From contig JANQQJ010000024.1 of the NCBI GenBank assembly GCA_028284945.1, positions 62,001-126,000 on the forward strand: DNA of 64,000 nt, given 5' to 3'. This DNA is from Alphaproteobacteria bacterium (GTDB taxonomy: Bacteria > Pseudomonadota > Alphaproteobacteria > SMXS01). The position numbers were made by a program, and so were the translations under genes. Positions 5,229-27,416 of the stretch are shown one piece after another; within the stretch, counting starts at the first letter, position 1, and every line of letters starts with the position of its first letter. Below the pieces are notes generated by a model. It saw nothing but the letters and a program-made list of their open reading frames with translations, had not been told where the DNA came from and did not search any database.

Positions 5229-5232
5229 TCGG

Positions 5233-5262
5233 GCCTCCTGTTCAATGCATGTCACAGGAGGC
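5233..5262 (-). promoter_or_regulatory. Shine-Dalgarno-sequestering hairpin before the acetamidase gene
   Basis: GCCTCCTGT (5233-5241) and ACAGGAGGC (5254-5262) form a perfect 9-bp inverted repeat with a 12-nt loop. In the minus-strand mRNA, the arm nearest the start codon contains AGGAGG, 5 nt before the TTG start, so the folded form would hide the ribosome binding site. The effect on translation is inferred. Confidence 0.55.
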
Positions 5263-5307
5263 ACAGCCCCCTGCAGGGTTGCGTTGAAGAGCAGGACGGA
5301 CACGCCA

Positions 5308-5323
5308 ACTTAATCGCTTAAGT
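5308..5323. promoter_or_regulatory. Candidate LacI-type operator upstream of the acetamidase gene
   Basis: ACTTAATCGCTTAAGT is a 16-bp near-palindrome with a central CG and one mismatched pair. Its core TTAATCGCTTAA resembles the perfect palindromes at 14399 and 15600. It overlaps the stop codon of the dioxygenase gene (5318-5320) and lies about 80 bp before the acetamidase start. Confidence 0.4.
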
Positions 5324-6121: not shown

Positions 6122-6135
6122 TTACGAAACGTCCT

Positions 6136-6241
6136 GTTATTGCGAGCGTAGCGAAGCAATCCAGGCATCGTCGCCGCCACGGTTATAATTGTGGATTGCC
6201 GCGTCGCCCCTCTCAAGTTCGGGGCTTCTCGCAATGACGTC
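6136..6241. repeat. Intergenic palindromic repeat, CATTGCGAG family, copy 1
   Basis: The element begins TTATTGCGAGCG and ends CTCGCAATGAC in inverted orientation, with AGCAATCCAG and GTGGATTGCC as an inner pair. The same outer and inner pairs occur at 27437-27536 and 33303-33402. It lies between the dioxygenase and the Rieske oxygenase genes. Confidence 0.75.
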
Positions 6242-6258
6242 TTGTGCTTTTTCATATC

Positions 6259-7446
6259 CTAAGACGCGGCCTTCATCTTCTTCCAGGTTTCCTGATAACG
6301 CGGCACCAGCCAGTTGTTGAACTCGCGCTGGGCCCCCTCCTGCCATGAGTATCTGCCGCGCACGGCAAAACGGGACCGCAGGCCAACCTGTACCAGTTCG
6401 TCAACATGCTGGTCCTGATCCATGATGTGAACGGCTGCCGCCATCATCATGTCGACCTTGTGGCCAAAGCCCTCATCCTTGTCAGCACCCGGCGCGAACA
6501 AGACGCCGGTGTCCATTTCATGGGTCTCCGGGCCCGTGGCCCGCACGATCAGATAGATGATCAGGTCGCTGGTCATCACCAGCGACAGGGTTGGCGGCAT
6601 GTTGGCAAAGACCATCCGGTTGCGGTCTTCCTCCGTCAGATTGGGGAATACAGGCAGAATCGCCTTTTGTGTGGCGTTGAAACTGGCATCGGGATGCAGC
6701 GTGCCATTGGTCCGGTAATAGCCGGCGGTGTCTTCCGGCAACTCCGGAAATGCCGCCAGATGGCTGGGCACAAAATCGTGCAAAGGCCCGCCATGCAGCT
6801 TGTTGGCGTGATAACCGTCATTATTGTTTTCGAACATCACCTTCCAGTTCCACGGGAAAGGCGTTCCAGGATCGGGCATCGGCCCTTCAGCCTCTTCCAT
6901 GCCGTAAGGGCGGAGAATTTCTTCAACCGCCGTCAGCCGTGGCGCCAAAGGCGGTGCGTCTTCGTCGAAGTTAATGAAGATAAAACCAAGCCAGAGTTCG
7001 ACCTTGAAGTTGGGCAGGCCATACTCGCTCTTGTCGAAGTCACAGGTCTTGCTCATGGCGGGCGCCGTCGCGAGCGACCCGTCAAGACTGTAACTCCAGT
7101 GGTGATAAGGGCAAACGAAGCCGCGTGCATTGCCGTGGCCTTCGGAGACCAACATGGCGCGGTGCTGGCACACAGACGACATGGCGCGGATCACCCCGTC
7201 CTGGCCCCGCGCGACCAAAATCGGTTCATCGATGATCGACGTATTGAAGAAATCACCTGGGTTCGGGACCCAGTTTTCACGGCCGACGCACAGCCATTCG
7301 TGGTTGAAAACGGCCTCTTTCTCAAACGCATAGAAATCGTCGTCGGTGTAACACTCCGGCGGCAGGGTCTCTGCCTCAAGCGTGTCGACCGCCGAACTGT
7401 TGAGCGCGTCGAAAAACTGATCGTCGAGGACAAGCGAGGTTCTCAT
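6259..7446 (-). CDS. Rieske non-haem iron oxygenase, alpha subunit
   Basis: This 395-residue protein has the Rieske [2Fe-2S] ligands CQHR and CPYHHW in the N-terminal half. The catalytic-domain iron block ENNNDGYHANKLHGG carries the two histidines and is followed by the typical C-terminal fold. Such proteins hydroxylate aromatic rings or demethylate N- or O-methyl groups, with electrons from a reductase and ferredoxin that I do not see nearby. Downstream on the same strand are a ring-cleaving dioxygenase and an amidase, which suggests one catabolic route. Confidence 0.93.
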   Translation of the reverse strand: MRTSLVLDDQFFDALNSSAVDTLEAETLPPECYTDDDFYAFEKEAVFNHEWLCVGRENWVPNPGDFFNTSIIDEPILVARGQDGVIRAMSSVCQHRAMLVSEGHGNARGFVCPYHHWSYSLDGSLATAPAMSKTCDFDKSEYGLPNFKVELWLGFIFINFDEDAPPLAPRLTAVEEILRPYGMEEAEGPMPDPGTPFPWNWKVMFENNNDGYHANKLHGGPLHDFVPSHLAAFPELPEDTAGYYRTNGTLHPDASFNATQKAILPVFPNLTEEDRNRMVFANMPPTLSLVMTSDLIIYLIVRATGPETHEMDTGVLFAPGADKDEGFGHKVDMMMAAAVHIMDQDQHVDELVQVGLRSRFAVRGRYSWQEGAQREFNNWLVPRYQETWKKMKAAS

Positions 7447-7551
7447 GTCTGTCTCTTTTCCATCGTTTGAGTCGTGCGTCTATGATCAAATGCTATGGCA
7501 GTTGCCCTCAGCGTTCTTGAATGGCCGTGCACAGGAGTTTGCGCCAACGGC

Positions 7552-8472
7552 CTATCCAGCGGCCAGCCCCGGCATCTCAAAGCCCCGTTCTTCGAGCCCG
7601 GCGATCAGCGCGTCGCTTTGCGCGTCAGTGAGTTCCACCAGCGGCGGCCGGACCCGGGCCCAGTCCTTAAGGCCTGCATAATGGGCCACGGCGCGCTTGA
7701 GGGCCGGGATCATCGGGAAGGTCTGCATATAGTCGCGAAAGGCGTTGAGCGCTTCTTGCTGCGCATCAGCATCATCCGCCTGCCAATTGGCATCAAGCGC
7801 CGCGATGGCGCCGGGGTTGATATTTGCCGTCGCCGAAATGCACCCGGCGCCGCCAGCCCGGCGGTTCATCAACAAATGCGTTTCGGTGCCTGAGAACACG
7901 GCAAAACCCGGAAACGACTCGATCATGGCGCCGGTATTGTCAAAGTCGCCGCCGCTATCCTTGATGCCGGCAACCGTATCCGGATAGGCCTTCAGCAACC
8001 GCTCGATCAGGCCAAGGGTGATCGGCACCTGAGCGACGGGCGGAATGTGATAGAGGTAGAGCTTCAGCCTCGTGTCACCCACTCGCTCGATCACCTCAGC
8101 GAAGGCACGGAACAGGCCTTCGTCGCTGACATTCTTGTAATAGAACGGCGGCAGCATCAGCACGCCGCCGCAGCTCTTGGACACCGCATGGGCGGTTAGC
8201 CGGACCGCATCCGGCAGCGCACAGGCGCCCGTTCCCGGCATCATGCGCAGCGGATCGATGCCGGCATCGACCAGCACGTCCAGCAGCTCGATTTTCTCAT
8301 CCACCGACAAGGAATTGGCTTCGCTGTTGGTGCCGAAGACGGCGAGGCCGCAATTCTGGCCGAGCATCCAGCGGCACTGATCGGCAAGGCGCCTGCCATT
8401 GGGAGTCAGGTCTTCATTGAAGGGGGTCACAACCGGTGACAGCACCCCCTGGAAAGATTCAGGACCAGTCAT
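7552..8472 (-). CDS. Dihydrodipicolinate synthase/N-acetylneuraminate lyase family aldolase
   Basis: The 306-residue protein has the DapA-family marks: FGTNSEANSLS (the GTxGE-like loop, residues 46-56), a catalytic Tyr in YLYHIP (Y141) and the Schiff-base Lys in VAGIKDSGGD (K171). The ATG at 8472 overlaps the end of the upstream enolase-superfamily gene by 14 bp, so the two are probably translated together. A dehydratase of the enolase superfamily followed by a DapA-like lyase is a common arrangement for sugar-acid degradation. This is therefore more likely a 2-keto-3-deoxy-sugar-acid aldolase or dehydratase than a lysine biosynthesis enzyme. Confidence 0.9.
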   Translation of the reverse strand: MTGPESFQGVLSPVVTPFNEDLTPNGRRLADQCRWMLGQNCGLAVFGTNSEANSLSVDEKIELLDVLVDAGIDPLRMMPGTGACALPDAVRLTAHAVSKSCGGVLMLPPFYYKNVSDEGLFRAFAEVIERVGDTRLKLYLYHIPPVAQVPITLGLIERLLKAYPDTVAGIKDSGGDFDNTGAMIESFPGFAVFSGTETHLLMNRRAGGAGCISATANINPGAIAALDANWQADDADAQQEALNAFRDYMQTFPMIPALKRAVAHYAGLKDWARVRPPLVELTDAQSDALIAGLEERGFEMPGLAAG

Positions 8473-9583
8473 CGATTGCCCATCTATCAAGTGCGGATTG
8501 ATCAAAGCTGAAGCCAAGCCCCGGCGTGGTCGGCAGCAGCAGGTCACCGTCCTCATATTTGAGTTGCGTATCAACCAGGTTGCGGAAATTCAGCACCTGA
8601 TCGTCAGGGAAGAACTCAACGAATTGCCCGTTGGGGTCAGCCGCCACCAGATGAACGTGCAGATCATGGAACCAGTGCGGACACATATTCACACCATAAC
8701 TGGCAGCGGTTGCCGAAATCCGGCGATATTCGCTGATTCCGCCACAGACGGCCGCATCGGTCTGCAATATGGCCGCGCCCTGTTTGTCCAGCAGTTCCTT
8801 GTGGCGCCAGCGCCCGGCTTCAATCTCGCCCGTCGCGACCGGTACCATGGTGCGTTGGGCCAGGGCGGCATGATTATCGATGTCGTCGGGGCTAAACGGC
8901 TCTTCGATCCAATAGGGATCATACGGTTCGTACCGCGCCATATAGCGCAGCGCCGTCGGCAGATCGGACCAGGCATTGTTGGCGTCCAGCATCAACAATA
9001 CATCCGGGCCAATCGCTTCGCGGGCGGCCGCGATGCGGTCTTCCTCGCCCTGCGGGTCCAGCCGGCCGATCTTCATTTTGACGGCCTTGAAGCCCAAAGC
9101 CACATAGGACGCCATCTCAGCACCCAGATCCTCCGGCGACTTGCCATCCAGATAGTAGCCGCCGCTGGCATAGGCAGGCACCCGGTCATCAGCATAGGCG
9201 CCGAGATACTTCCAGAGCGGCAAACCGGCGGCGCGTGCATTGCGATCCCAGAGCGCGACGTCAATAATGCTGAGCGCGCGCATCACCGAGCCGGTGCGCC
9301 CGTGCAGCAAGGCTTCCTGATACATCGCCTGCCAGTGGCCTTCGGTCCGATGCGGGTCTTCACCCACAAGCATGGGGGCAAAAAGGTCGCGTACAGCATG
9401 GGCGACCAGCGAGCCGCCCCGGCTGCCGCCATAGCAAAAGCCTATGCCTTTCAGACCATCAGACGTTCGCACACGGACGACCCCATAGTCGCGGGCGACA
9501 ACGTCCCGGGTCGCGAAGGACGTGGGATTATCCAACGGCACGCGGATGGTGCGCGCCTCAACGGCGGTAATCTTATGAGTCAT
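8459..9583 (-). CDS. Mandelate racemase/muconate lactonizing enzyme family protein (acid-sugar dehydratase-like)
   Basis: This 374-residue enolase-superfamily enzyme has KMK (K169/K171), metal ligands D200 (LDANNAW), E227/E228 (EEPF) and E253 (TGEIEAG), and D276 with H303 (CPHW) as the general acid/base pair on the opposite face. The mandelate racemase subgroup abstracts the proton next to a carboxylate, mainly to dehydrate sugar acids. It is coupled to the DapA-like lyase downstream. It is divergent from an amidohydrolase gene at 9733, with a 149-bp shared promoter region. Confidence 0.92.
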   Translation of the reverse strand: MTHKITAVEARTIRVPLDNPTSFATRDVVARDYGVVRVRTSDGLKGIGFCYGGSRGGSLVAHAVRDLFAPMLVGEDPHRTEGHWQAMYQEALLHGRTGSVMRALSIIDVALWDRNARAAGLPLWKYLGAYADDRVPAYASGGYYLDGKSPEDLGAEMASYVALGFKAVKMKIGRLDPQGEEDRIAAAREAIGPDVLLMLDANNAWSDLPTALRYMARYEPYDPYWIEEPFSPDDIDNHAALAQRTMVPVATGEIEAGRWRHKELLDKQGAAILQTDAAVCGGISEYRRISATAASYGVNMCPHWFHDLHVHLVAADPNGQFVEFFPDDQVLNFRNLVDTQLKYEDGDLLLPTTPGLGFSFDQSALDRWAIDDWS

Positions 9584-9638
9584 GGCCCCTCTTTAAGCCC
9601 GAACCCTATGCTTAACAACGCCATGCACTGGCTAATAC

Positions 9639-9672
9639 CGTTTCGCAAAGCAATTGAACGTTTCATGCAAAG
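9639..9672. promoter_or_regulatory. Direct repeat in a divergent promoter region
   Basis: CGTTTCGCAAAG (9639-9650) and CGTTTCATGCAAAG (9659-9672) start 20 bp apart, about two helical turns. They lie between the dehydratase gene (minus) and the amidohydrolase gene (plus), and could bind a regulator of one or both. No regulator can be assigned. Confidence 0.3.
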
Positions 9673-9732
9673 TCGGTGCATTTGCGGCATGCTACCTGTC
9701 GCATCTGATCATCAAACCCTGGAGAGGCCTGC

Positions 9733-11106
9733 GTGGAGAAGCAAACAGCGGACACTTTGATTACCGGTGCGACGATCGTCACCATGGATGCCGACCACAC
9801 CGTCATCAAGAACGGTGCGCTTGCCATTGACGGCAACACCATTGTTGGCGTCGGCCCCGTGTCCGACGTGTGCGCGGCCTTTGTGTCGGCCAATATCGTG
9901 GATGGCAGCCGTTTTGTGATCACGCCGGGGATGGTGAATGCCCATATTCACATCACCGGCGACCCGCTGACACAGGCCCATATGCCGGACGATCTGGACG
10001 GCGAATTCAATGACAAGCTGCAGCGCTGGGTCATGCCGCGCTACATGGCACACACCCCGGCCGACGAACATCTGTCAGCGCAGATGGCAGCACTTTCCAT
10101 GCTGCGGACCGGGACGACCTGTTTCATCGAAGCAGGCACCATCCGGTTTCTCGATGAGGTTGTCGATGGCCTGAACAGCATGGGCATGCGCGGCCGTGTC
10201 GGCATCTGGGTCGAAGGCCGGGCGTTTGACCCCGCAGAAGACCAAGCCGCGAAAATCGCTGATGCCATCAAGCTGATGGAAGACGAGGTTGCGCAATATC
10301 CTGCCAGCAACGGCGAACGTATCGCAGCCTGGCCCATTCTGGTTGGCCATTCCACCAACCCGGACGAGGTGTGGCTGGCGGCGAAAGAACTGGCTGATCA
10401 GCATAATCTGGGAATCTCTGCGCATATGAGCCCACGCGTTGCCGACCCGGACTGGTTCTTGAGCAATACCAACCGCCGGCCGCTGGAGCATCTGGCCGAC
10501 ATTGGTGTGCTGGGGCCCAATGTATCGCTGACCCACCTGGCCCAGATTGATGACAGCGAATTCGATATTCTGGTCGAAACCGGTACCAACGCCATCTGTT
10601 GCGCCCTGGCGGCGATGCGCGCATCCCAAGGCATTATCCCCAAGGGGTATTTCCCACGCATGGCGCGGTCCGGTGTCAAGATTATGCTGGGGTCTGATGG
10701 GTATGATTCCGACATGCTGCGGATCGGACAGCTGTTTTCAACAGCGTTCCGGGATGCCGAAGTTGATGTCAGCCTGTTTTCATCAGCCGAGATCATGTCG
10801 ATGCTGACCAGCCGCGCCGCGCAAGCGCTTGGCATGGCCGATCAGATCGGTTCGCTGGAGGTGGGCAAGAAAGCCGACCTGGTGGCCCACGACACTGACC
10901 GACCGGAGTGGTCGCCGGTTCTGAACCCCATGAACCAACTGGTCTGGGCCGCCGATGGCCGAAGCGTCCATAGCGTATGGGTGGATGGCGAGCGTGTCGT
11001 AGAAAACTATCGCAGCACGATGGTGGATGAGGCGAAGCTCTATGCCGATGCGCAGCAAGCCGGCGAAGCGATCATTGAGCGCAGCAATCTGCCGGCGATG
11101 GAATAG
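9733..11106 (+). CDS. Amidohydrolase family protein (cytosine deaminase/AtzA-like)
   Basis: The 457-residue protein has the metal-binding HxH in NAHIH (H71, H73), later histidines in SAHMS and LTHLAQ, and the metal-site Asp in GSDGYDSD. It ends with the short beta-domain typical of the chlorohydrolase/deaminase branch (KADLVAHD). The GTG start is supported by GGAGAGG at 9721-9727, 5 nt upstream. These enzymes hydrolyse C-N or C-Cl bonds in heterocycles or guanidine-like groups; the substrate here is unknown. It is convergent with the VOC gene, 6 bp apart. Confidence 0.9.
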   Translation: MEKQTADTLITGATIVTMDADHTVIKNGALAIDGNTIVGVGPVSDVCAAFVSANIVDGSRFVITPGMVNAHIHITGDPLTQAHMPDDLDGEFNDKLQRWVMPRYMAHTPADEHLSAQMAALSMLRTGTTCFIEAGTIRFLDEVVDGLNSMGMRGRVGIWVEGRAFDPAEDQAAKIADAIKLMEDEVAQYPASNGERIAAWPILVGHSTNPDEVWLAAKELADQHNLGISAHMSPRVADPDWFLSNTNRRPLEHLADIGVLGPNVSLTHLAQIDDSEFDILVETGTNAICCALAAMRASQGIIPKGYFPRMARSGVKIMLGSDGYDSDMLRIGQLFSTAFRDAEVDVSLFSSAEIMSMLTSRAAQALGMADQIGSLEVGKKADLVAHDTDRPEWSPVLNPMNQLVWAADGRSVHSVWVDGERVVENYRSTMVDEAKLYADAQQAGEAIIERSNLPAME

Positions 11107-14516: not shown

Positions 14517-15515
14517 TCAATTCGCAGCGTGCAGCGATCCGCGTACGATCACGTCCGTCGCAAGCGACATATTCACCACCGGGGCCTCATCCCCCATGAT
14601 CCGGCGGATCAACAGCGCTGACGCTTCCTTGCCCAGCGCCGTGAGCGGCTGGCGCACGGTGGCCAGCCCGGGAATTGAATGCCGTGCCCACAAAATATCA
14701 TCGAAGCCAATGACCGAGACGTCCTCGGGAATATTGCGGCCCAATTCGTGCAATGCCCGCATGACGCCCAACGCGATAAAGTCGTTCCCACAGACAATCA
14801 CCGTTGCGGCGTTGTCACGGAGCTTGGCCTGTGTCGCGTCTGAAAGCGTAATCGTGAACGGGTTCTCAACTTCCCAGTCAATAACAGCGCGGTCGCCGAT
14901 GCGCTCGACAAAGCCCTGGCGGCGCTGGCGTGCTCGCGATAATGACTGGGGGCCCGCGACAATCGCAATATGACTATGGCCTAATGCCAAGACTTGGTCT
15001 GCAACCAGCGCGCCGCCTGCATAGTGATCCGATGAGATCGTGTCATAATTGGGCAACGGCCGGTCGACCACGACGATGGGCACATCGCCCCGAAACTCTT
15101 CCAGGCTGTCATGTTCAGTCGCCGGGCACCAGACGATCCCTTCAACGCCCCGGCGGATGAGGTCGTCTGCACTATCGCGCTCAGTTTCCACGGTGCCTTC
15201 AGAATCAACCAGAAAAACCGCATAACCTGCTTCACGCGCCGCGCTCTGAACCGCCTGCGCGAGTTCAGGAAAAAACGGGTTGCTGAGATCAGGCAGGATC
15301 AGGCCGATGCTGAGTGTCTGGCCGGTCCGGGTCGCGCGCGCCACATGATTGACCCGGTAACCAACAGCCTTTGCGGTGTCGCGCACCCGTTTTTGAACCG
15401 CCGCGCTGACAGACCCAGTACCGTTCAGAACATAGGATACCGTGGCTGCAGAGACCCCGGCCTCGCGCGCAATATCCTGAAGTGTTGGTCGATTTCGGCG
15501 CTGCGTCTTTTTCAT
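14517..15515 (-). CDS. LacI family transcriptional repressor
   Basis: The N-terminal helix-turn-helix and hinge are classical: TLQDIAREAGVSAATVSYVLNG, then NHVARATRTGQT. The rest is the periplasmic-binding-protein-like effector domain (SIGLILPDLSNPFFPEL to VSVIGFDD). The effector is usually a sugar or sugar derivative. I prefer the ATG at 15515 (MKKTQRR), which puts the helix-turn-helix at the normal distance; the frame is open to 15551 with no better ribosome site. The gene is divergent from ribokinase, and a perfect CG-centred palindrome lies between them, which suggests autoregulation and control of rbsK and of the TonB receptor downstream. Confidence 0.93.
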   Translation of the reverse strand: MKKTQRRNRPTLQDIAREAGVSAATVSYVLNGTGSVSAAVQKRVRDTAKAVGYRVNHVARATRTGQTLSIGLILPDLSNPFFPELAQAVQSAAREAGYAVFLVDSEGTVETERDSADDLIRRGVEGIVWCPATEHDSLEEFRGDVPIVVVDRPLPNYDTISSDHYAGGALVADQVLALGHSHIAIVAGPQSLSRARQRRQGFVERIGDRAVIDWEVENPFTITLSDATQAKLRDNAATVIVCGNDFIALGVMRALHELGRNIPEDVSVIGFDDILWARHSIPGLATVRQPLTALGKEASALLIRRIMGDEAPVVNMSLATDVIVRGSLHAAN

Positions 15516-15599
15516 GTGTTTGTTGGCGCTTCCCAAATATCCCCGCCCCATCTTGGTGTTTGATGGGTTGTCGCGCCCAATCGGCGCCCGCAGAAAGAC

Positions 15600-15664: not shown

Positions 15665-16579
15665 ATGCGCATTGCCGTGGTCGGCAGCATCAATACTGAC
15701 CTCACCATCCGCGTGCCCCACATCGCTGCGCGGAACGAGACTGTTGTGGGAACCGGCAATTTCGTCATCGCGCAGGGCGGTAAGGGCGCCAATCAAGCCG
15801 TCGCGGCCGCAGCAGCGGGCGGCGATGTCGCGATGATCGGTATGGTTGGTGATGATGGGTTCGGAGCCGATGCGATTGCCAGCATTGAAGCGGCCGGCGT
15901 CAATTGCGACCACATCGTCCGGTCCGGCAACCATTCCACTGGTCTGGCGTCGATCCTGGTCGACGAAAATGGCGACAATGCCATTGCCGTCGCACCGGGC
16001 GCTAATGATGGCGTAACCCCTGCGATGATCGAACGGTCAGAAAGCATCATCCGCGATGCCGGCATTCTGGTGGTGCAGCTTGAAATACCCAATGACCCCG
16101 TTAACGCTGCGGTTCGTATCGCAAAGCGGCATGACACGAAGGTCATTCTAAATCCGGCGCCCGCCCGGCCTGAAGGGCTGGACTGTCTTGCCAGCGTCGA
16201 TTTTGTCACACCCAATGAGCCGGAAGCGCTGGCCCTGACCGGTGTCTCAACCGATGCCACTGGCGGGCCTGCAGAGATTGCCGGTGCCCTGATGGCCAAG
16301 GGTATCGACCATGTCGCACTGACGCTGGGTGCCCGCGGATGTTTTATTGCACAGCGTGATATGACCAAAGCGATTGACGCGCCGGTTGTAGAGTCCGTCG
16401 ACACCACCGGGGCCGGCGACGCATTTACCGGGTTTCTAGCCGCATCGCTTGCCAAGGGGCTAGGGTTTGAACAGGCCTCGCAGATTGCCGTTGCGGCTGC
16501 GTCCTTGTCGGTCACCCGTGAGGGCGCGCGGACGAACCTGCCAACATGGGACGAGGTCGAAGCGTTTCAGAACGGCTAA
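15665..16579 (+). CDS. rbsK: Ribokinase-like PfkB carbohydrate kinase
   Basis: This 304-residue protein begins MRIAVVGSINTDL and has the ribokinase glycine block GGKGANQAVA and the PfkB C-terminal signature DTTGAGDAFTG with the catalytic Asp. It phosphorylates ribose or a related sugar. I chose the ATG at 15665, where GGAAGGAG lies upstream and the family N-terminus begins; the frame is open much further. It overlaps the 3' end of the convergent MFS gene by 4 bp. No ribose ABC transporter is nearby, so the TonB receptor or the MFS protein may supply the substrate. Confidence 0.92.
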   Translation: MRIAVVGSINTDLTIRVPHIAARNETVVGTGNFVIAQGGKGANQAVAAAAAGGDVAMIGMVGDDGFGADAIASIEAAGVNCDHIVRSGNHSTGLASILVDENGDNAIAVAPGANDGVTPAMIERSESIIRDAGILVVQLEIPNDPVNAAVRIAKRHDTKVILNPAPARPEGLDCLASVDFVTPNEPEALALTGVSTDATGGPAEIAGALMAKGIDHVALTLGARGCFIAQRDMTKAIDAPVVESVDTTGAGDAFTGFLAASLAKGLGFEQASQIAVAAASLSVTREGARTNLPTWDEVEAFQNG

Positions 16580-17829
16580 ACGCCTGCGTTTTCGCTCTGG
16601 TCCGCCTTCACCGGCGGCTTCATCAAGATCGACGCGATCAAGACAAGGCACAAGACGCCTGCATAGACCAGGAACAGTCCACCAAAGCTGCCGAATGTGT
16701 CGCCAAAGTAACCACCGAGGATCGGCCCGGCTGCCGCCACGCTGGTGAGAAGGTGAAGCGTGCCGAAGAGCTCGGGATTGTTGTCCGGTCCGAAATAGTT
16801 CAGCAGCAGGACCGCTGTTGCAAATAGGCACATGCCGTAGCCAAACCCTTCACCGATAGCAAATATCGCAATGGTTACGGGATCATCGGCATAAGCCAGC
16901 GCAATCATACCAACCACTTCTGCTGCAAGGGCAGCAACCAACAGCCACTTCGGATCGATCTTAGTCGCCAACGCGCCGCCAAGCGCCCGGGCCAGCGAGT
17001 TGACCGCCTGATGCGCGCTCAACGCGCCGGCAGCGAAAGCGATAGAGACGCCCATATTGCCCATATGCGTTGCCGCCCATGAGTTCATGGTAACCGCCGC
17101 AAACAGCGTTACCGTCATCGCAATGCTAATGATCGCGAACTGCGGCGTACGGACGGCATCCCGGAAGGTCCAGCTAACCTTCGTCCGGTAGACGCGGGCA
17201 GATAGTTTTTCTTCCTTGGGCGGTGTGCCCCCCTCGTCATCATAGCCAGCGGGCATATTGCGAATCAGAAGCGCGGCACCAACGGACAGTACGACGACGG
17301 ATACGCACATCACCCACCAGTGATATCGCCAGGACTCTGTCAGTGCGACGATGGCCGGCACCATGCTCGGCCCGATAATGCCGCCCAGGCCGCCAATGGT
17401 AAAATAGGCCCCGATGGCGAAGGACTGCCGGTCCGGCACCCAGCGGTTGATCACATAAATGCCGGGAACAGATGCCAGCTGCGTATAGCCTAGACCCGCC
17501 AGTCCGGCACCAATCAGATAAGGGTAGAGCCCCTGGGTTGTCGCCAGCAGGCCGAACCCCAACCCCATCGCGGCGCCGCCGGTGAGAAATGTTCCCTTGA
17601 TGCCGATTTTCCGAATCGTCCAGGCGGGCAACTGCCCTGCAAGACCGACCATTAACGCCAGGATCGTAAAGCCGAGTCCTGCTTGCGTGTAATCGAGCCC
17701 AAGCTCCTCCACCATGAACGGAAAGACCACGCCCAGCGACGTAAAAGTCGAGGCAGTGATGAAAAGGAAAAGCGCGCTGACAATGCCAAAGGGAATCCAG
17801 CGATAATAGCCTGGAGACGCATCGCTCAT
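16576..17829 (-). CDS. MFS transporter
   Basis: About 417 residues with some twelve hydrophobic segments and major-facilitator features such as the loop KIGIKGTFLTGG between the second and third segments. The charged central loop after AALLIRNMPAGYDDEGG is typical. I chose the ATG at 17829 (MSDASPGYYRWIPF) because a short leader ORF with its own ribosome site ends exactly there in an ATGA overlap. The in-frame ATG at 17880 would lie almost on top of that ribosome site. Its promoter matches that of hyuAB, so the cargo may be the hydantoin- or oxoproline-like substrate of that operon. Confidence 0.9.
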   Translation of the reverse strand: MSDASPGYYRWIPFGIVSALFLFITASTFTSLGVVFPFMVEELGLDYTQAGLGFTILALMVGLAGQLPAWTIRKIGIKGTFLTGGAAMGLGFGLLATTQGLYPYLIGAGLAGLGYTQLASVPGIYVINRWVPDRQSFAIGAYFTIGGLGGIIGPSMVPAIVALTESWRYHWWVMCVSVVVLSVGAALLIRNMPAGYDDEGGTPPKEEKLSARVYRTKVSWTFRDAVRTPQFAIISIAMTVTLFAAVTMNSWAATHMGNMGVSIAFAAGALSAHQAVNSLARALGGALATKIDPKWLLVAALAAEVVGMIALAYADDPVTIAIFAIGEGFGYGMCLFATAVLLLNYFGPDNNPELFGTLHLLTSVAAAGPILGGYFGDTFGSFGGLFLVYAGVLCLVLIASILMKPPVKADQSENAGV

Positions 17830-17873
17830 ATGATTTGGCCAAGAAGCATGCGTCCCCACTCTAACTGTGCCAT
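17826..17873 (-). CDS. Candidate 15-residue leader peptide before the MFS gene
   Basis: On the minus strand GAGGAGG is followed 8 nt later by an ATG opening a 15-codon frame (MAQLEWGRMLLGQII). Its TGA overlaps the MFS ATG as ATGA, an arrangement seen in translational coupling. No run of a single amino acid suggests attenuation. It may simply recruit ribosomes for the transporter start, which has no ribosome binding site of its own. Confidence 0.4.
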   Translation of the reverse strand: MAQLEWGRMLLGQII

Positions 17874-17895
17874 GGTGCATGCCTCCTCAATCGGT

Positions 17896-17959
17896 GTTTC
17901 GTCTGATGAAACGTCATTTGGTCTAGCGATACGCTAACCTGTTTGCTACGGTCGGTCAA
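17896..17959 (-). promoter_or_regulatory. MFS promoter with two palindromic operators, matching the hyuAB promoter
   Basis: Read on the minus strand: TTGACC (plus 17954-17959), 17 bp, then TAGCGTATCGCTAG (plus 17923-17936), whose core TAGCG-TAT-CGCTA is a palindrome overlapping the -10. After 10 bp comes the 17-bp palindrome GTTTC-N7-GAAAC (17896-17912). Every element and spacing matches 23678-23741. Confidence 0.7.
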
Positions 17960-18007: not shown

Positions 18008-19525
18008 GTGAATATCGCGACTCATATGATGCGAGCCGGTGGTGCATTTGCCGAGCGCCCCGCCGTTGCGGTCGGTGGCCGGACCATCCAAACCTATGGC
18101 GCCACAGCAGATCGGACGGCGCGGTTGGCTGGCGCCATGCGCAGCAAATTGGGGCTGCGGCCCGGTGACCGGGTGGCGCTGGCCCTGAAAAATTGCCCGG
18201 AATATGTCGAGCTGCTTTATGCCTGCTGGCATGCCGGGCTGGTTGCGGTGCCCATCAACGCCAAACTGCACCAGACGGAATTCGCGTTCATCCTGAAGAA
18301 CAGCGCCGCTCGTGCCTGTTTTGCCACCACCGACCTTATCGACACAATCGCCCCGCTTGCTAGCGATCCATTGCATACCGTGATCGAGGTTGGCAGCCGG
18401 GACTATGACCGGCTATTGCGGACAGAGCCGATGCCGCTTGTCGCGCAGGCGCCGACGGACCCGGCCTGGCTTTTCTATACCAGCGGCACGACAGGCCAGC
18501 CGAAAGGCGCCGTGTTGAGCCACCGCAATCTGCTCGCCATGTCATGGTGTTATTTCGCTGACGTCGACCAGCAAAGCCCTTGGAACACCATTTTGCACGC
18601 AGCGCCGATGAGCCACGGGTCCGGTCTTTACGGACTGGCACATGTGATGCAGGGCAGCTGTCATGTCATTCCCGAGTCCGGTGGATTTGATCCAACGGAA
18701 ATTTTTGACCTGATCGAAAGCTGGAACGACGCAGCCTTCTTTGCCGCCCCCACCATGGTGAAACGCCTGATCGAGCATCCGCAAGACCGCGACACCAGCA
18801 ACCTGAAGACCATCATTTATGGTGGCGGGCCCATGTATGTGGAGGACTGCCTGGCCGGTCTCGACCGGTTTGGCCCTAAGCTGGCCCAGCTCTATGGCCA
18901 GGGCGAAAGCCCTATGACTATTACCGCGCTGAGCGCGGCGATGCATGCTGACAAAACCCATCCCAGATGGCTGGATCGTCTGGCCTCTGTCGGGATTCCG
19001 CAAAGCGCGGTCGAGGTTCGTGTCACCGATGCCGACGACAACACTTTGCCGCCCGGCGAGGTTGGCGAAATCCTCGTGCGCGGCGATACGGTCATGAATG
19101 GCTATTGGCAGAATGAGGCGGCCACCGCCGAAACGCTTCGCGGCGGCTGGCTGCATACCGGCGATTTCGGCGTGTTCGATGAGGACGGATTTTTGACCCT
19201 AAAAGACCGCTCAAAAGACCTGATCATTTCCGGCGGCACCAATATCTACCCCCGCGAAGTCGAAGAAGTGCTGGTTCAGCACCCCGACATTGCCGAAGTC
19301 GCTGTGATCGGCCGGCCGGACCGGGAATGGGGAGAAAGCGTCGTCGCCTATCTGGTGGCCCGGGACGGGACCGAACCAGACACATCTGCATTGGACACTT
19401 ACTGCATCGAACATATGGCCCGCTTCAAACGGCCAAAAGATTATCGGTTTGTCGAAGCGTTACCGAAAAACAATTACGGCAAGGTGGTCAAGAAAGACCT
19501 GCGGACGCTCGACAGCGAAAGCTAG
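18008..19525 (+). CDS. Acyl-CoA synthetase (AMP-forming, class I adenylate-forming enzyme)
   Basis: The 505-residue protein has the ATP loop YTSGTTGQPKG, the acyl-adenylate motif YGQGESPMT, the hinge motif GWLHTGDFGVFDEDGFL and the C-terminal KDLIISGGTNIYP block. The terminal catalytic Lys lies in KNNYGKVVKKDLR. It activates a carboxylic acid to its CoA ester; the chain type cannot be predicted. The GTG start is supported by AGGAG at 17998-18002, 5 nt upstream. It is divergent from the MFS transporter and may share its regulatory region. Confidence 0.93.
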   Translation: MNIATHMMRAGGAFAERPAVAVGGRTIQTYGATADRTARLAGAMRSKLGLRPGDRVALALKNCPEYVELLYACWHAGLVAVPINAKLHQTEFAFILKNSAARACFATTDLIDTIAPLASDPLHTVIEVGSRDYDRLLRTEPMPLVAQAPTDPAWLFYTSGTTGQPKGAVLSHRNLLAMSWCYFADVDQQSPWNTILHAAPMSHGSGLYGLAHVMQGSCHVIPESGGFDPTEIFDLIESWNDAAFFAAPTMVKRLIEHPQDRDTSNLKTIIYGGGPMYVEDCLAGLDRFGPKLAQLYGQGESPMTITALSAAMHADKTHPRWLDRLASVGIPQSAVEVRVTDADDNTLPPGEVGEILVRGDTVMNGYWQNEAATAETLRGGWLHTGDFGVFDEDGFLTLKDRSKDLIISGGTNIYPREVEEVLVQHPDIAEVAVIGRPDREWGESVVAYLVARDGTEPDTSALDTYCIEHMARFKRPKDYRFVEALPKNNYGKVVKKDLRTLDSES

Positions 19526-20550: not shown

Positions 20551-21318
20551 TCAACGGCCCCGATAACCGAGGCGAGACGAGACATTGCGCGCTGCATCGG
20601 TGACCGCATCAATGAAAGCCGTGTCGGGATCCGGGGTCAAAAACTGAACCGACCCGACAATATTGATCGTGCCGGCCAGCGCGCCGGTGCCGTCGAAAAC
20701 GGGCGCGGAAAGAGCGTTAATACCGATCAGTGCTTCCTCCGGCGCGACAGCCCAGCCCTGGTGACGCACCCGGTCAACTTCCGCACGGAGCGTATCGATG
20801 TCGGTATTCGTGTTGTCCGTCCATTGCCGCCGTTCACCGCCCTCGACGACTTGCCAAAGATCCGGCGCGCCAAAGGCCAGCGCGACCTTGCCCTGCGCTG
20901 ACGAGTGAAAATCGAAAATCGCACCAGGGCGGCTGGTGATTTCGATTTCCGACCGGTGCCGCAGAATATCCAGGACACGCACCCCCGTCGCCTCAACCTG
21001 ACCAATAGTGACGGTCTGGGCGACCCGCTCATAGAGCACCTGCATTTCACGACGGGCTTCGGCCAGAAAGTTGACCTGTTCGGCGATCGCCTGACCAATA
21101 TGGAACAGGCTGAGCGTCAGCTGATACCGCTCTGTTTCCGGATCCTGCGAGACATATCCCCGGTCAACCAGTGTGCGCAGATGGCGATAGATGCGGGGTT
21201 TGGTACGGCCGATGCCGCGCGCCAGATCGCTGACCCCAATAGGCCCATTGGACCTCGACATGAACTCGATAATGTCGAGCGCGGTAACAACAGACTGAAT
21301 GGAGTCCTTGTCTGGCAT
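20551..21318 (-). CDS. IclR family transcriptional regulator
   Basis: This 255-residue protein has an N-terminal winged helix (VSDLARGIGRTKPRIYRHLRTLVDRGYV) and a C-terminal effector domain (SAQGKVALAFG, GINALSAPVFDGTG). IclR proteins bind short palindromes and respond to small acids. It lies 4 bp after the HpcH/HpaI aldolase gene, so it is in that operon. It is encoded between the two matching promoters at 17896-17959 and 23678-23741, making it my first choice as their regulator; the AraC protein at 22646 is the alternative. Confidence 0.93.
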   Translation of the reverse strand: MPDKDSIQSVVTALDIIEFMSRSNGPIGVSDLARGIGRTKPRIYRHLRTLVDRGYVSQDPETERYQLTLSLFHIGQAIAEQVNFLAEARREMQVLYERVAQTVTIGQVEATGVRVLDILRHRSEIEITSRPGAIFDFHSSAQGKVALAFGAPDLWQVVEGGERRQWTDNTNTDIDTLRAEVDRVRHQGWAVAPEEALIGINALSAPVFDGTGALAGTINIVGSVQFLTPDPDTAFIDAVTDAARNVSSRLGYRGR

Positions 21319-22552: not shown

Positions 22553-22621
22553 GTCACCCCGGCGTAGGCCGGGGTCCAGCAAAACCGCTGAACTGGATTC
22601 CGGCCTTCGCCGGAATGACAT
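22553..22621. repeat. Intergenic palindromic repeat, CATTCCCGC-type family, copy 2
   Basis: Two hairpin units: CACCCCGGC-GTA-GGCCGGGGTCCAG, then CTGGATTCCGGC-CTTC-GCCGGAATGACA. The architecture (a TCCAG/CTGGA inner junction between two stems) matches the element at 3044-3166, with different stem bases. It lies between the cupin operon and the araC-type gene. Confidence 0.7.
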
Positions 22622-22645: not shown

Positions 22646-23614
22646 TCATGTGTTGGCCTTAGCGTCAGTGCGCCCACCGGTGCGGCGATAGTCACGCGGC
22701 GATGTGCCGTACTGATTGCGAAAGGTCCGGCTGAAATGCGCCGAGCCATTAAAGCCCCAGCGAAAGCAAATCTCCGATATCGATAACTGCGCATGCAGCG
22801 GGCTGATCAGGTCGGAGCGGCACCGTTCCAGCCGCCTCGTCCGGACATAGTTGGTGAAGGTATTGCCGGTGGCCGTGAACAGCTTTTGCATATAGCGCAG
22901 GGAGACCCCGTGCTCTTCGGCGACCTTCGCCGGCGTCAAATCCGGATCGCTGAGCATGGTTTCAATCGTCTGGCAGATGCGGTGCAAATGCGCGGTGCGC
23001 GCCCCTTCGGCACCGCCAAGGCCAAACACGGTTTTCTGATCCGCCAGGCTAGTGATCAACATCTCGGTCAGCGCCAGTTCAATGGCGCGCAGTTCCTCGG
23101 CATCAATATCGCCCAGCACGCGGGCAATAGACCTGAGCAAATCAGCAAAGATGCGCCGGATGCCTGACCGGCCGGAAAAATGACCCATCTGCAACGACAG
23201 TGGAGCGATCAGTCGGGGGCTCAAGGCAACGCGCGGCACGCGCACAAACAGCATCCGGAATTCAGTCAGGCAGGTCAGCGTTGCATCTTCGCGCGACGGA
23301 CCAAAAATCACATCACCCGGCGCGACCTCGAACCGTTTGTCCTCAGCACTCAGAACCGCCTGACCCTCAATCATCAGCGCCAGCCAGATCGCGGCTTCCT
23401 GATCCGGATATTTGCCAGAGATTTCCTGCGCCTCTGATTCAATGACCGAGAATTCGATCCCCATGGGCGAGACAATGCACTGCAGCTTGCCTTGCAGGGT
23501 CTTGCCTTCAGGCACCGTCGCCGGGGGCAGGCAAACACGGCCAAGCGCGTCGCGCCAGGCTTCGCCGCGCGCATCCTCGTCAAAGGCTTCAGTTGTGAAG
23601 TGCCACGCTTCCAT
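22646..23614 (-). CDS. AraC family transcriptional regulator
   Basis: The 322-residue protein has a C-terminal AraC DNA-binding domain. The first helix-turn-helix is around VSLRYMQKLFTATGNTF and the second around ISEICFRWGFNGSAHFSRTF, ending YGTSPRDYRR. The N-terminal part looks like the cupin-like sensing domain of the AraC_binding_2 type. It is divergent from hyuAB, so it may activate that operon in response to the substrate. Confidence 0.92.
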   Translation of the reverse strand: MEAWHFTTEAFDEDARGEAWRDALGRVCLPPATVPEGKTLQGKLQCIVSPMGIEFSVIESEAQEISGKYPDQEAAIWLALMIEGQAVLSAEDKRFEVAPGDVIFGPSREDATLTCLTEFRMLFVRVPRVALSPRLIAPLSLQMGHFSGRSGIRRIFADLLRSIARVLGDIDAEELRAIELALTEMLITSLADQKTVFGLGGAEGARTAHLHRICQTIETMLSDPDLTPAKVAEEHGVSLRYMQKLFTATGNTFTNYVRTRRLERCRSDLISPLHAQLSISEICFRWGFNGSAHFSRTFRNQYGTSPRDYRRTGGRTDAKANT

Positions 23615-23677: not shown

Positions 23678-23741
23678 TTGACGTGCCTGATATGATCCCC
23701 TATCGTATCGCTAGTATAAATACTGTTTCGACAAACGAAAC
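23678..23741 (+). promoter_or_regulatory. hyuAB promoter with two palindromic operators
   Basis: TTGACG (23678-23683), 17 bp, TATCGT (23701-23706), ATCGCTAG (23707-23714), 10 bp, then GTTTCG-ACAAA-CGAAAC (23725-23741). The first operator, CTATCG-TAT-CGCTAG, begins at the last spacer base and covers the -10. The second lies downstream of the transcription start, 44 bp before the hyuA GTG. Its layout equals that of the MFS promoter at 17896-17959. Confidence 0.7.
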
Positions 23742-23785: not shown

Positions 23786-25855
23786 GTGACGAAATATGCA
23801 CTGGCTGTCGATATCGGCGGCACCTTCACCGATGTGGTTCTGATTTCTAGCGACAATCAGGGCTGGACCGACAAGACGCTGACCACCCATCACGATCTGC
23901 TGGAGGGCTTTTTCCGCGCGACAGATCTGGTGCTCGGCCGTGCTGGCATCACGCTTGATCAAGTGGGTGACGTGGTCACCCATGCCACCACGGTCGTCAC
24001 CAATGTGCTGATTGAGCGTAAGGGTCCGCCGACGGCTATGATCGTCACCGAAGGGTTCCGCGACGTACTCTATATTCGCGACGAGCATCGCTACGACATG
24101 TTCGACCCGCAGATCGAATATGCCGAGCCGCTGATCACCCGGGACCTGACATGGGGCGTGGATGAACGCGCCTATGCCGATGGGTCGGTCGGTAAAGGCG
24201 TCGACGCGAAAGCCGTTCACGCCATTGCTGGCGAGTTGAAAGCCAAAGGCATTTCTTCGGTCGCCGTGTGCCTGCTGAACAGTTACCGCAACCCGGCCAA
24301 TGAACGGGCGGTGCGCGATGCGCTTAACGAGGCCGCGCCGGAAATCTTCGTCACCCTGTCCAGCGATGTCGCGCCGCAGATGCGCGAATATCTGCGGGCC
24401 AGCACGGCCGCGCTCAATGCCTATACGGTACCGCTGGCCAAGCCCTATCTCGATGCGCTGATTGCCAGGATGCAGGACGGGGGGTTGGACAGTGAACCAC
24501 TGATCATGCTGTCAAATGGGGGTGTGGTCGGCGCGCGTGTCGCCGGCACCTACCCTGTGCGGATGATCGAATCCGGGCCTGCGGCCGGTGCTTTGGTGGC
24601 GGGATACATTGCCCGGCAATATGGCCTGGATAATCTGATTTCCTTCGACATGGGCGGCACCACGGCCAAGGCCTGCCTGATTCAGGATGGTGAACCCCTG
24701 GTGGTCGGCGACTTCGAAGTCGACCGACGCTATCGCTTCAAGCCCGGCAGCGGCATGCCGATTACCGTGCCCTCCATCGACATGATCGAGATCGGCGCCG
24801 GTGGCGGCTCCATCGCCCGGGTCGACGCGCTTGGCCTTTTGAAAGTCGGCCCGGACAGCGCCGGCTCCAACCCCGGCCCGGCGTGCTATGGCCGTGGCGG
24901 CGTGCAGCCCTGTGTCACCGATGCCGATGTGGTGTTGGGCATTCTTGACCCGGACAATTTCCTGGGCGGCGACATGAAGCTCGACCGGTCGGCATCAGAA
25001 AAAGCGGTCAATACACTGGCCGAGGCATTGGACGTATCCATGCAGGATGCCGCCTATGGCATTTTCAGTGTGGTGGGTGAGTCCATGGCAGCGGCCGCGC
25101 GCGCGCATGCCACCGACCGCGGCGTCAACTATCGCGGCATGCCACTACTGGCATTCGGTGGTGCCGGTCCGGTTCATGCCTGCTACGTCGCCGAACAACT
25201 CGACAGCAATCAGGTGATCTATCCGCCGATGGCCAGCGTTCTCAGCGCTTATGGCACACTGGTGACGCCGGTCCGCCTTGACCTGGCCCGCGGTGGCCTT
25301 AGCCGCCTTGGTGATCTGGATTGGGACAGCACCTCGGTTCTGATCGATGACATGCTGTCGGAAGGCGAATCAGCGCTGCTTGAAGCCGGGCTACCGAAAG
25401 ACTCCATCGCCTTTGGGTTCGGTGCCGACCTCCGCTATTTCGGCCAGCAAAACGAAGTGACCATTACTCTGGACGCCGACCCGCGGGATGCGAAGAACAT
25501 CGATGATCTGCGGGCAAAATTCGAAGCCGGGTACGAAACCCTCTATGGGGTTCGGCTGGACGACATGGATGTTGAAGTGGTTACCTGGCGGGTGACGGCG
25601 CATGGCGGTGATACGAACCGAACGGCAGTTGCCGATGTGGCCTCCGACCCAACCAACCCCAAGGGCAGCCGCCCGGTCTATCTGGGACAATCCAACGCGG
25701 ACGTGCCGGTCTATGACCGCAAGGCACTGGCCGTCGGACAGGAAGTGGCCGGCCCGGTGATCGTCGAAGAACGCGAAACCACGGCCTTTATCCTGCCCGG
25801 CTGGACCTTTACCGTGCATCAGGATGGCAGCCTGATCGCCAATCGCGACGCCTAG
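23786..25855 (+). CDS. hyuA: Hydantoinase/5-oxoprolinase subunit A
   Basis: This 689-residue protein begins YALAVDIGGTFTDVVL, the phosphate-binding block of the HyuA family (actin/ASKHA fold). Later come THATTVVTN, SNGGV, FDMGGTTAKA, GAGGGSIAR and AFGGAGPVHA. With HyuB it forms an ATP-dependent enzyme that opens hydantoin, 5-oxoproline or N-methylhydantoin-like rings; acetone carboxylase is a relative. The GTG start fits the family N-terminus. The partner gene follows 10 bp downstream. Confidence 0.95.
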   Translation: MTKYALAVDIGGTFTDVVLISSDNQGWTDKTLTTHHDLLEGFFRATDLVLGRAGITLDQVGDVVTHATTVVTNVLIERKGPPTAMIVTEGFRDVLYIRDEHRYDMFDPQIEYAEPLITRDLTWGVDERAYADGSVGKGVDAKAVHAIAGELKAKGISSVAVCLLNSYRNPANERAVRDALNEAAPEIFVTLSSDVAPQMREYLRASTAALNAYTVPLAKPYLDALIARMQDGGLDSEPLIMLSNGGVVGARVAGTYPVRMIESGPAAGALVAGYIARQYGLDNLISFDMGGTTAKACLIQDGEPLVVGDFEVDRRYRFKPGSGMPITVPSIDMIEIGAGGGSIARVDALGLLKVGPDSAGSNPGPACYGRGGVQPCVTDADVVLGILDPDNFLGGDMKLDRSASEKAVNTLAEALDVSMQDAAYGIFSVVGESMAAAARAHATDRGVNYRGMPLLAFGGAGPVHACYVAEQLDSNQVIYPPMASVLSAYGTLVTPVRLDLARGGLSRLGDLDWDSTSVLIDDMLSEGESALLEAGLPKDSIAFGFGADLRYFGQQNEVTITLDADPRDAKNIDDLRAKFEAGYETLYGVRLDDMDVEVVTWRVTAHGGDTNRTAVADVASDPTNPKGSRPVYLGQSNADVPVYDRKALAVGQEVAGPVIVEERETTAFILPGWTFTVHQDGSLIANRDA

Positions 25856-25865
25856 GAGAAGACAG

Positions 25866-27416
25866 ATGGACGGCATCGAACTGGAAATCATGTGGAGCAA
25901 CCTGATCAGCATCGTCAGCGAACAGGCGCAGGCGCTGCAGCGGATTGCCTTCAGTCCCATCGTCCGCGAAGCAGGCGACCTGGCAACGGCGCTGTTTGAT
26001 GCAGACGCCCGCATGGTTGCCCAAGCGGTGACCGGTACGCCGGGCCACATCAACTCTTTAGGCGCCGCAGCGGCTCAACTGGTCAAAGTCGTTCCGCCCG
26101 AACAACTGGTCCCCGGTGACGTGCTGATCACCAATGATCCATGGCTCTCTGCTGGACACTTCTTTGACATCACAGTCCTGACCCCGATTTTCCGGGGCGA
26201 CACGCTGATCGGTTATGCGGGCTCAACGATCCACCATACCGACATTGGCGGCTATGGCATCGGCGCCGGCGCCCGGGATATCCACGAAGAGGGCCTTTGG
26301 ATTCCCGTCATGAAGCTCTATGAGGGCGGCGAGCCCAACGAGACGCTACACGCGATCATCCGCCGCAATGTGCGCACGCCGGACGCGATTTTCGGCGATC
26401 TGGCCGCGCAAGTGTCGAGCGGTAAGATGGGCGGTGAGCGTCTCAACGCCATGTGCGACCGCTATGGCCTTGATGACATTCAGCAGCTATCGCATGAGAT
26501 CATTTCCCGCTCTGAAGACGCCACACGGGCCGACATCCGCAAACTGCCCGGCGGAACCTTCCACGGTGAAACCACGTTCGACGTGCCGGGCGGTGACCTG
26601 ATCACTTTGAAGACCGCGGTCACCATCGACAACAATGCCGGCGATATCACCATCGATTTCGAAGGCAGTTCAGGTCCCAGCCCCCACGGCATCAATGTGG
26701 TGATGGCCTATACCCACGCCTATGCCACCTTTGCCATTCGCAGCATGCTGAACCCGGACTTGCCGAACAATTTCGGCAGCCTGTCGCCGATCAAGGTCGA
26801 AGCGCCGGAAGAATGCATCATCAATGCGCAATATCCCTCGCCCTGCAACGCGCGCCACGTGGTGGGCATGTATGTGCCATTCCCGATTCTAAAGGCCCTG
26901 GCTCAGGTGGTGCCCGACCGGGTTCTGGCCGAGGGCTCCGGCGCGGTCTGGACGATTCAGATCCAAGGCCGTGACGAAGCGGGCAAGCCTTTCACCAGTT
27001 CCATGTTCAATTATTCCGGTGGCATGGGTGCCCGCGCAACCAAGCCCGGCCTGTCAGCCACCTGTTATCCAACAGGTGTGGCGGCAGTGCCGGTTGAAGT
27101 GCTGGAAGCCTCCATCCCCATCGAGTTCACCTGCAAGGAACTGGTTGCGGGCACCGGGGGGGCAGGCGCACAGGCCGGCGGCGATGGCCAGAAGATCGGG
27201 TTTAAAATGCGCACCGGCCAAGAGTGGCTGTTGAACGCGATCCCCAGCCGGTTGAACACCCAGCCGGAAGGCTTGGACGGCGGTGAACCGGGCGCGCAAG
27301 GCGCCTTCCTGATCAACGGTGAACCCAGCCTGGAAGCAAAAAAACGCGCCATGGGCGCTGAGGACCAGGTGATCATGCAAACACCCGGTGGCGGGGGTTA
27401 TGGGGCGGCCAACTAG
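25866..27416 (+). CDS. hyuB: Hydantoinase/5-oxoprolinase subunit B
   Basis: The 516-residue protein starts DGIELEIMWSNLISIVSEQAQ and contains TGTPGHINS, LITNDPWLSAGH, IGYAGSTIHHTDIGG and the terminal glycine stretch TPGGGGYG, as in HyuB proteins. It is the metal-binding, ring-hydrolysing partner of HyuA. TAGGAGAAGACAG before the ATG gives a good ribosome site. A dispersed palindromic repeat follows the stop by about 20 bp and may act as a transcription end. Confidence 0.95.
   Translation: MDGIELEIMWSNLISIVSEQAQALQRIAFSPIVREAGDLATALFDADARMVAQAVTGTPGHINSLGAAAAQLVKVVPPEQLVPGDVLITNDPWLSAGHFFDITVLTPIFRGDTLIGYAGSTIHHTDIGGYGIGAGARDIHEEGLWIPVMKLYEGGEPNETLHAIIRRNVRTPDAIFGDLAAQVSSGKMGGERLNAMCDRYGLDDIQQLSHEIISRSEDATRADIRKLPGGTFHGETTFDVPGGDLITLKTAVTIDNNAGDITIDFEGSSGPSPHGINVVMAYTHAYATFAIRSMLNPDLPNNFGSLSPIKVEAPEECIINAQYPSPCNARHVVGMYVPFPILKALAQVVPDRVLAEGSGAVWTIQIQGRDEAGKPFTSSMFNYSGGMGARATKPGLSATCYPTGVAAVPVEVLEASIPIEFTCKELVAGTGGAGAQAGGDGQKIGFKMRTGQEWLLNAIPSRLNTQPEGLDGGEPGAQGAFLINGEPSLEAKKRAMGAEDQVIMQTPGGGGYGAAN

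Follow-up and report, generated by a model that had tools for sequence, protein, structure and literature searches.

Why would the promoter of the hyuAB operon and that of a distant transporter gene share one arrangement of sequence elements, down to the length of their spacers? The question is raised by the 64,000-nucleotide stretch of alphaproteobacterial DNA analyzed here (the window), for which an earlier note had proposed that a single regulator, encoded by an iclR gene lying between the two promoters, controls both the transporter and HyuAB. In our assessment, the two elements are very probably tandem operators of this IclR-family protein (20551-21318), which would repress both promoters until a ligand releases it. 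The genes that enter into the argument are as follows.

14517-15551: LacI-family protein, encoded in the window
16576..17880, minus strand: MFS transporter (MFS_1), proposed regulated target
18008..19525, plus strand: acyl-CoA ligase, divergent from the MFS promoter; three related loci (L029, L030, and L047) have this divergent gene beside the operator as well
20551..21318, minus strand: IclR-family regulator, proposed binder of both tandem operators; no other IclR_C protein was found in the genome
21323..22491, minus strand: HpcH/HpaI aldolase plus cupin, directly upstream of iclR on the same strand; not under the operator here
22646-23614: AraC-family protein, divergent from hyuAB and direct neighbor of the hyuAB promoter
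23786..25855, plus strand: HyuA (hydantoinase/oxoprolinase A), proposed regulated target
25866..27416, plus strand: HyuB (hydantoinase B/oxoprolinase), proposed regulated target

Two promoters with one layout

The hyuAB element (23678-23741, plus strand) and the MFS element (17896-17959, minus strand) are 64 bp each and have in common the layout TTGAC[G/C], 17 bp, TA[T/G]CGTATCGCTAG, 10 bp, GTTTC-N7-GAAAC. The element-by-element match that had been described for them, including the equal 17-bp and 10-bp spacers, was confirmed in position and at every base. The parts of the two elements, named according to the reading developed below, are these.

23678..23706, plus strand: hyuAB promoter; -35 TTGACG at 23678-23683, 17-bp spacer, -10 TATCGT at 23701-23706
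23705..23721, plus strand: operator copy 1 at hyuAB; weak, GTATC-N7-TAAAT, 7/10; lies across the -10 and the predicted start point
23725..23741, plus strand: operator copy 2 at hyuAB; GTTTC-N7-GAAAC, 10/10; 20 bp downstream of copy 1
17931..17959, minus strand: MFS promoter; -35 TTGACC at 17959-17954, 17-bp spacer, -10 TAGCGT at 17936-17931
17916..17932, minus strand: operator copy 1 at MFS; weak, GTATC-N7-CAAAT, 7/10
17896..17912, minus strand: operator copy 2 at MFS; GTTTC-N7-GAAAC, 10/10

Pattern counts in the window and in the genome led us to reject a chance origin of the two elements. The full promoter-operator pattern, allowing at most 3 mismatches, occurs exactly twice in the window and in none of 100 dinucleotide shuffles. 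Across the genome (3.56 Mb in 44 contigs, 99.13% complete), the 21-letter core CGTATCGCTAG-N10-GTTTC-N7-GAAAC at the same tolerance occurs only at the hyuAB and MFS sites, while the reversed-pattern control gave no match; likewise, tandem operators with at most 3 of 20 mismatches number two genome-wide, at hyuAB and MFS, against zero for the control. The many unrelated occurrences that would have undermined the earlier claim of a shared regulator are thus absent at this tolerance. The significance is in the joint layout, as the single parts are insignificant on their own: GTTTC-N7-GAAAC with at most 1 mismatch has 4 matches versus 1.6 expected, and CGTATCGCTAG with at most 2 mismatches has 13 versus 11 expected, both unremarkable. 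A generic promoter scan found 2 promoters versus 2.1 expected, recovering that of hyuAB (9/12) and missing that of the MFS gene.

One operator repeated at 20 bp

The earlier note had described two distinct palindromes, the first overlapping the -10 and the second downstream. The positions stand; the separate identity of the first does not. As judged from aligned promoters, the two are copies of one operator, GTTTC-N7-GAAAC, strong downstream and weaker upstream, where it reads GTATC-N7-nAAAT at exactly 20 bp from the strong copy. Two different palindromes serving two inputs, with the first (TAGCGTATCGCTA) an element of its own, would be the alternative, and we consider it extremely unlikely. 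It can draw on the perfect palindrome of the MFS copy (TAGCG-TAT-CGCTA) and on the string GTATCG[C/A]TA, which is kept in 7/8 of the nearest promoters. Nevertheless, TA[T/G]CGTATCGCTAG is fully palindromic in the MFS copy only; its left half is not conserved, being TATCG in hyuAB and TATTG, TAATG, or CATTG in relatives; and the conserved string is the left half of the weaker operator copy. Moreover, the upstream element reads GTTTC in L053, L017, and L072, and the letters of the first palindrome fit a degenerate operator copy in 22/23 promoters. The first palindrome was therefore rejected as a separate site.

The reading as one repeated operator rests above all on spacing. Among 23 aligned promoters of the iclR/hyuAB/MFS group, a partner at -20 scores at least 6/10 in 22, with the next best offset at 3; in the first 15 promoters alone, the -20 partner is present in 15/15, with the next best offset at 2. 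In a set of 28 sites chosen by hand from the listed palindrome matches, the 20-bp partner scores at least 6/10 in 20/28, and any other offset from 8 to 50 does so in at most 4/28. L018 was left out of the promoter alignments because it is near-identical to L017, and L022, L054, and L056, where iclR relatives are present and hyuA has no match in the stretch covered, stand outside the 15- and 23-promoter sets. In L019, L020, L021, and L113, copy 2 has two mismatches, and these sites were chosen for their position before the operon, iclR, or the MFS gene. Some loci display the repeat openly. For instance, L053 (genome G072) has GTTTC-GGAATAC-AATAC upstream and GTTTC-TAATAGC-GAAAC downstream, exactly 20 bp apart, and in L080 both copies come close to perfection (9/10 and 10/10). 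The site near iclR in L022 is itself perfect but has no partner at 20 bp (2/10 and 3/10).

In 22/23 aligned promoters, site 1 is preceded by a TTGAC at a distance of 14-30 nt. This TTGAC stands 27-28 bp before GTATC in G209, G377, and G390 and 27 bp before it in the window. Between lineages the TTGAC-to-operator distance shifts by as much as 10 bp, which leaves the precise overlap with the -10 variable.

IclR as the proposed regulator

The protein encoded at 20551-21318 matches PF09339 (HTH_IclR; 49.3 versus 22 bits) and PF01614 (IclR_C; 94.3 versus 24 bits), both above the gathering score. The proposal that it is the shared regulator gains from the type of site, which is that of IclR proteins, and from its being the single IclR_C protein in the genome. 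Further evidence comes from linkage: a site of at least 9/10 lies within -400..+60 of iclR in 18/37 loci holding iclR relatives, versus 0.46 expected from Markov shuffles. The other 19/37 loci are without a site of at least 9/10 near iclR; in some of them the site is weaker or sits at the operon head, and in five of the 23 loci L058-L080 (L059, L061, L063, L077, and L078) no site with at most 1 mismatch was found in the stretches around iclR. In the putative recognition helix, a region assigned by eye, R45 is invariant in 37/37 relatives, all of which have K or R at position 40.

Two other regulators encoded in the window might bind these operators instead, namely, the AraC-family protein, whose gene directly adjoins the hyuAB promoter and has a counterpart of the same family near an MFS orthologue in G209, and the LacI-family protein. 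We regard either as very unlikely. The site here fits the IclR group-1 consensus and its tandem spacing and adjoins iclR relatives in the 18/37 loci, and the usual targets are direct repeats for AraC proteins and one palindrome with a central CG for LacI proteins. Furthermore, homologues of the AraC and LacI proteins have no match in the stretches of L015-L022 (tblastn, E up to 1e-10), although the operator persists in most of them, and across the 23 loci L058-L080 the sole match to either is a partial AraC in L079.

Such a site can belong to other IclR proteins, as evidenced by L004 (genome G200), where a tandem site with TTGAC upstream (1501-1538) adjoins a different IclR-family gene that is divergently oriented to an SDR-like gene. 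Also, in the family of G196, the tandem pattern with at most 3 mismatches occurs at 28 places in 248 genomes versus 15 reversed-pattern places, a modest excess over the control which indicates that the pattern alone lacks specificity in larger genomes. Control of the importer and HyuAB by one IclR regulator is well supported by the sequence comparisons, and the protein at 20551-21318 is probably the repressor at both operators.

The regulon in relatives

A class-wide scan of 385 genomes returned a composite match in 12, and in three of these (G000, to which the window belongs; G209; and G377) the regulon is at the match. The other nine genomes hold ten matches (L003-L006 and L009-L014), of which L004 is the one by a different IclR gene and the rest have no IclR match. 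G209 and G377 belong to another family than the host, and in both the core lies just upstream of the cupin genes. In G209 (L029), the operator is followed by cupin-iclR-hyuA-hyuB, and in G377 (L030) by cupin-aldolase-iclR-hyuA-hyuB; each has the acyl-CoA ligase divergent. The arrangement in G390 (L047) is the same, with the operator followed by cupin-iclR and the contig ending inside iclR. In L030, a 9/10 palindrome at 17623-17639, past the end of hyuB and ahead of the next open frame, is perhaps a further operator.

Conservation in relatives, which had been suggested as a check, upheld the proposal of a shared regulator: the operator is present in 18/18 loci that hold iclR with hyuA (L015-L021, L029, L030, L053, L062, L068, L072-L074, L076, L079, and L080), where it scores 8/10 or more and either precedes iclR or heads the operon, and at three MFS orthologues. 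The 20-bp partner reaches at least 6/10 in 17/18 of these loci and 5/10 in L062. Some of these loci are kin: L017 and L018 are near-identical, and L068, L073, L074, and L076 are alike. Elsewhere among L058-L080, L064-L066 are near-duplicates. In L015-L019 (Afifella, Kangsaoukella, Maritimibacter, Pseudooceanicola, and a Rhizobiaceae metagenome-assembled genome), cupin is upstream of iclR and hyuA-hyuB downstream, and the operator precedes the cupin-iclR-hyuAB block in 5/5, weakly in L019. In family f70, hyuA is beside iclR in 8/23 loci (L062, L068, L072-L074, L076, L079, and L080). These eight encode an IclR 36-41% and a HyuA 63-66% identical to those of the window, and they carry the tandem operator (with a weaker partner in L062), its site scoring 9/10 or 10/10 and lying about 70-106 bp ahead of the matched iclR segment. 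An HpcH/HpaI-type aldolase match lies beside iclR in 11 of the other 15 loci of L058-L080.

The three MFS orthologues with a tandem operator, two in G209 (55% identical) and one in G390 (54%), lie on contigs other than that of iclR. The G209 paralogues have one operator each, at L110 1445-1461 and L113 2769-2785; the former gene is beside a TauD dioxygenase and a PfkB-type kinase, and the latter is beside an SDR and the AraC-family gene. A partial MFS copy in G390 (L114) starts at the contig end, without upstream DNA, and no operator was found upstream of more distant MFS homologues in G253 (32-35% identity). In L017, the one locus of L015-L019 covered with Pfam, DctP, DctQ, and DctM flank the cupin, so that TRAP genes are part of the same operon. 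The importers seen, MFS proteins in G000, G209, and G390 and a TRAP system in L017, are all under the operator, which supports, but does not prove, that importer and HyuAB share a substrate. The MFS protein may thus import the HyuAB substrate, an idea strengthened by the TRAP genes in a relative's operon.

With the layout kept at hyuAB operons and MFS orthologues and no third occurrence in the genome, control of transporter and hyuAB by one regulator, as originally claimed, holds up. We give almost no credence to the view that the two window promoters are alike merely because of a recent duplication whose function was not kept. A duplication or split as such is plausible, since a single copy precedes the whole operon in G209, G390, and G377 and the window MFS copy keeps the same divergent acyl-CoA ligase. 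Nevertheless, the spacers between the blocks have diverged while the blocks and their spacing are kept, and the same layout is found at the MFS orthologues of G209 and G390; both points argue against this view.

Proposed mechanism

The two operator copies have centers 20 bp apart, about two helical turns, and would therefore present the same DNA face. If the start point lies near 23713, as the -10 at 23701-23706 suggests, copy 1 at hyuAB would be centered on it and copy 2 would cover about +13 to +29; the geometry at the MFS promoter is the same. With no ligand bound, IclR would occupy both copies as two dimers or a tetramer and thereby exclude RNA polymerase from the hyuAB and MFS promoters, until a ligand derived from the imported compound or its breakdown released it. 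Importer and HyuAB would then be made together. We infer binding, repression rather than activation, the ligand, and MFS carriage of the HyuAB substrate from sequence data.

Some IclR-family proteins are activators, for example, PcaU and PobR. The protein here might likewise activate, or repress without ligand and activate with it, and the poor -10 hexamers TATCGT and TAGCGT would suit a promoter that needs help. We nonetheless consider activation unlikely on the basis of position: activator sites are normally upstream of the -35, whereas here, and in the nearest relatives, the copies cover the -10 and extend past the expected start point, a placement at which a bound protein normally blocks RNA polymerase. 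Repression, for which the placement had already been judged suitable, is thus the preferred reading.

The window and its operator-free promoters

Within the window, the hyuAB and MFS sites have a tandem score of 17/20, versus a best score of 13-16 in each of 100 random windows. The same tandem operator was sought and rejected at the promoters of the iclR/aldolase/cupin operon, LacI-RbsK, TBDR, and P450, where the best scores are 9-12/20; upstream of cupin, the best is 10/20, and the cupin-aldolase-iclR operon of the window is without the operator. This counts against the proposed role of IclR, as in relatives iclR is itself placed under the operator. A single 8/10 palindrome lies near the TBDR start, at 14229. 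Because the AraC and acyl-CoA ligase genes share their upstream stretches with the two real sites, they may be controlled too.

The window operon seems to be a split form of the operon found in G377, with cupin-aldolase-iclR on the minus strand and hyuAB on the plus strand. The host is predicted to have given up operator control of iclR, which is present in G209, G390, and G377. At the expected cupin-iclR promoter region, 22557-22617, lies a GC-rich inverted-repeat pair (CATTCCGGCGAAGGCCGGAATCCAG and CCCCGGCCTACGCCGGGG, minus strand), and a similar stretch, CCCGGCGAAGGCCGGGG, occurs near the operator in L008. The repeats at 22557-22617 may mark the break point of the operon split.

Taken more broadly, these loci could represent a previously undescribed alphaproteobacterial catabolic module, a proposal for which we see the chances as evenly balanced. 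It would comprise an IclR-type repressor, its 20-bp tandem operator, HyuAB acting as either a carboxylase or a lactam hydrolase, in many cases a cupin together with an HpcH/HpaI aldolase, and an importer (a TRAP operon in one lineage; separate MFS genes, one or several, in another), all devoted to one compound, perhaps aromatic derived or N-heterocyclic. In the host, the operon would have been split and inverted, with the operator kept on importer and hydrolase and lost from iclR, so that autoregulation gave way to a constant repressor supply.

Comparison with known systems

A close parallel comes from the IclR family. The survey by Suvorova and Gelfand (2021; PMC8222616) gives a group-1 consensus of GKTYCRYW3-4RYGRAMC with a subgroup GTT-11-AAC and describes tandem sites with 18-22 nt between centers in 94 orthologous groups, attributed to a tetramer on one DNA face. 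The operators here share with those the palindrome type, the 17-bp length, the tandem arrangement, the 20-nt center distance, and a promoter near the cognate iclR. Copy 2 of hyuAB and that of MFS each fit the consensus at 15/17 positions (hand count), and copy 1 has 7/10 of the outer letters; palindrome fit, a center spacing within 18-22 nt, and linkage to iclR across genomes were thus all found. Mechanistically, the present case follows what has been published for IclR tandem sites and adds a well-supported example to a known kind of system. The targets differ: HyuAB with an MFS or TRAP importer, cupin, and HpcH/HpaI aldolase are not named as hydantoinases in the main text of PMC8222616 ("hydantoin" appears 0 times), while its supplementary tables may list the group. 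No paper on an IclR-HyuAB regulon was found among open-license PMC papers.

The best NCBIfam match of the window IclR is BhcR (NF045644), nearly full length at 129.9 bits, which is below the 350-bit cutoff, so that the protein is not assigned to this equivalog. BhcR is the IclR-family regulator of the beta-hydroxyaspartate cycle.

HyuA matches PF05378, PF01968, and PF19278 and HyuB matches PF02538, all above the gathering score and over their length. The pair thereby resembles the ATP-dependent lactam hydrolases CapAB caprolactamase (PMC8453981 and PMC6061476), N-methylhydantoinase, and 5-oxoprolinase, its matches being to the hydantoinase/oxoprolinase Pfam families. In contrast to the caprolactamase, the neighbors here are cupin, aldolase, transporter, and IclR, and HyuA reaches 477.2 of the 1000 bits needed for CapA caprolactamase subunit alpha (NF050156), which sets it apart from that protein. 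Among its nearest solved relatives, HyuA is about equally near N-methylhydantoinase 7hk5 and 5-oxoprolinase 6yra, and its sequence similarity extends to acetophenone and acetone carboxylases. The ring-opening hydantoinase of the earlier note, which would open a cyclic amide at the expense of ATP, is accordingly a candidate activity. Gene context, family profiles, and nearest structures gave no identification of the HyuAB substrate.

With one regulator, two operators, and a single IclR_C protein in the genome, this is a clean case for testing how tandem operators are used. The regulon also links an orphan HyuAB pair with an aldolase and specific transporters. This narrows the substrate search, as any compound that lifts repression is a candidate, and the operator can serve as a marker for further pathway members in other genomes. 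G000 encodes two further HyuA relatives, at C10:64430-66469 (36% identity) and C37:162252-164225 (34% identity), neither with a tandem operator in the genome scan. The catabolic neighbors of the regulon at window 4137-11106 include an FmdA-type amidase, a LigB-type ring-cleaving dioxygenase, a Rieske oxygenase, and an amidohydrolase, and in G377 (L030), LigB and Rieske genes, together with a TauD dioxygenase, are on the same contig as the hyuAB operon.
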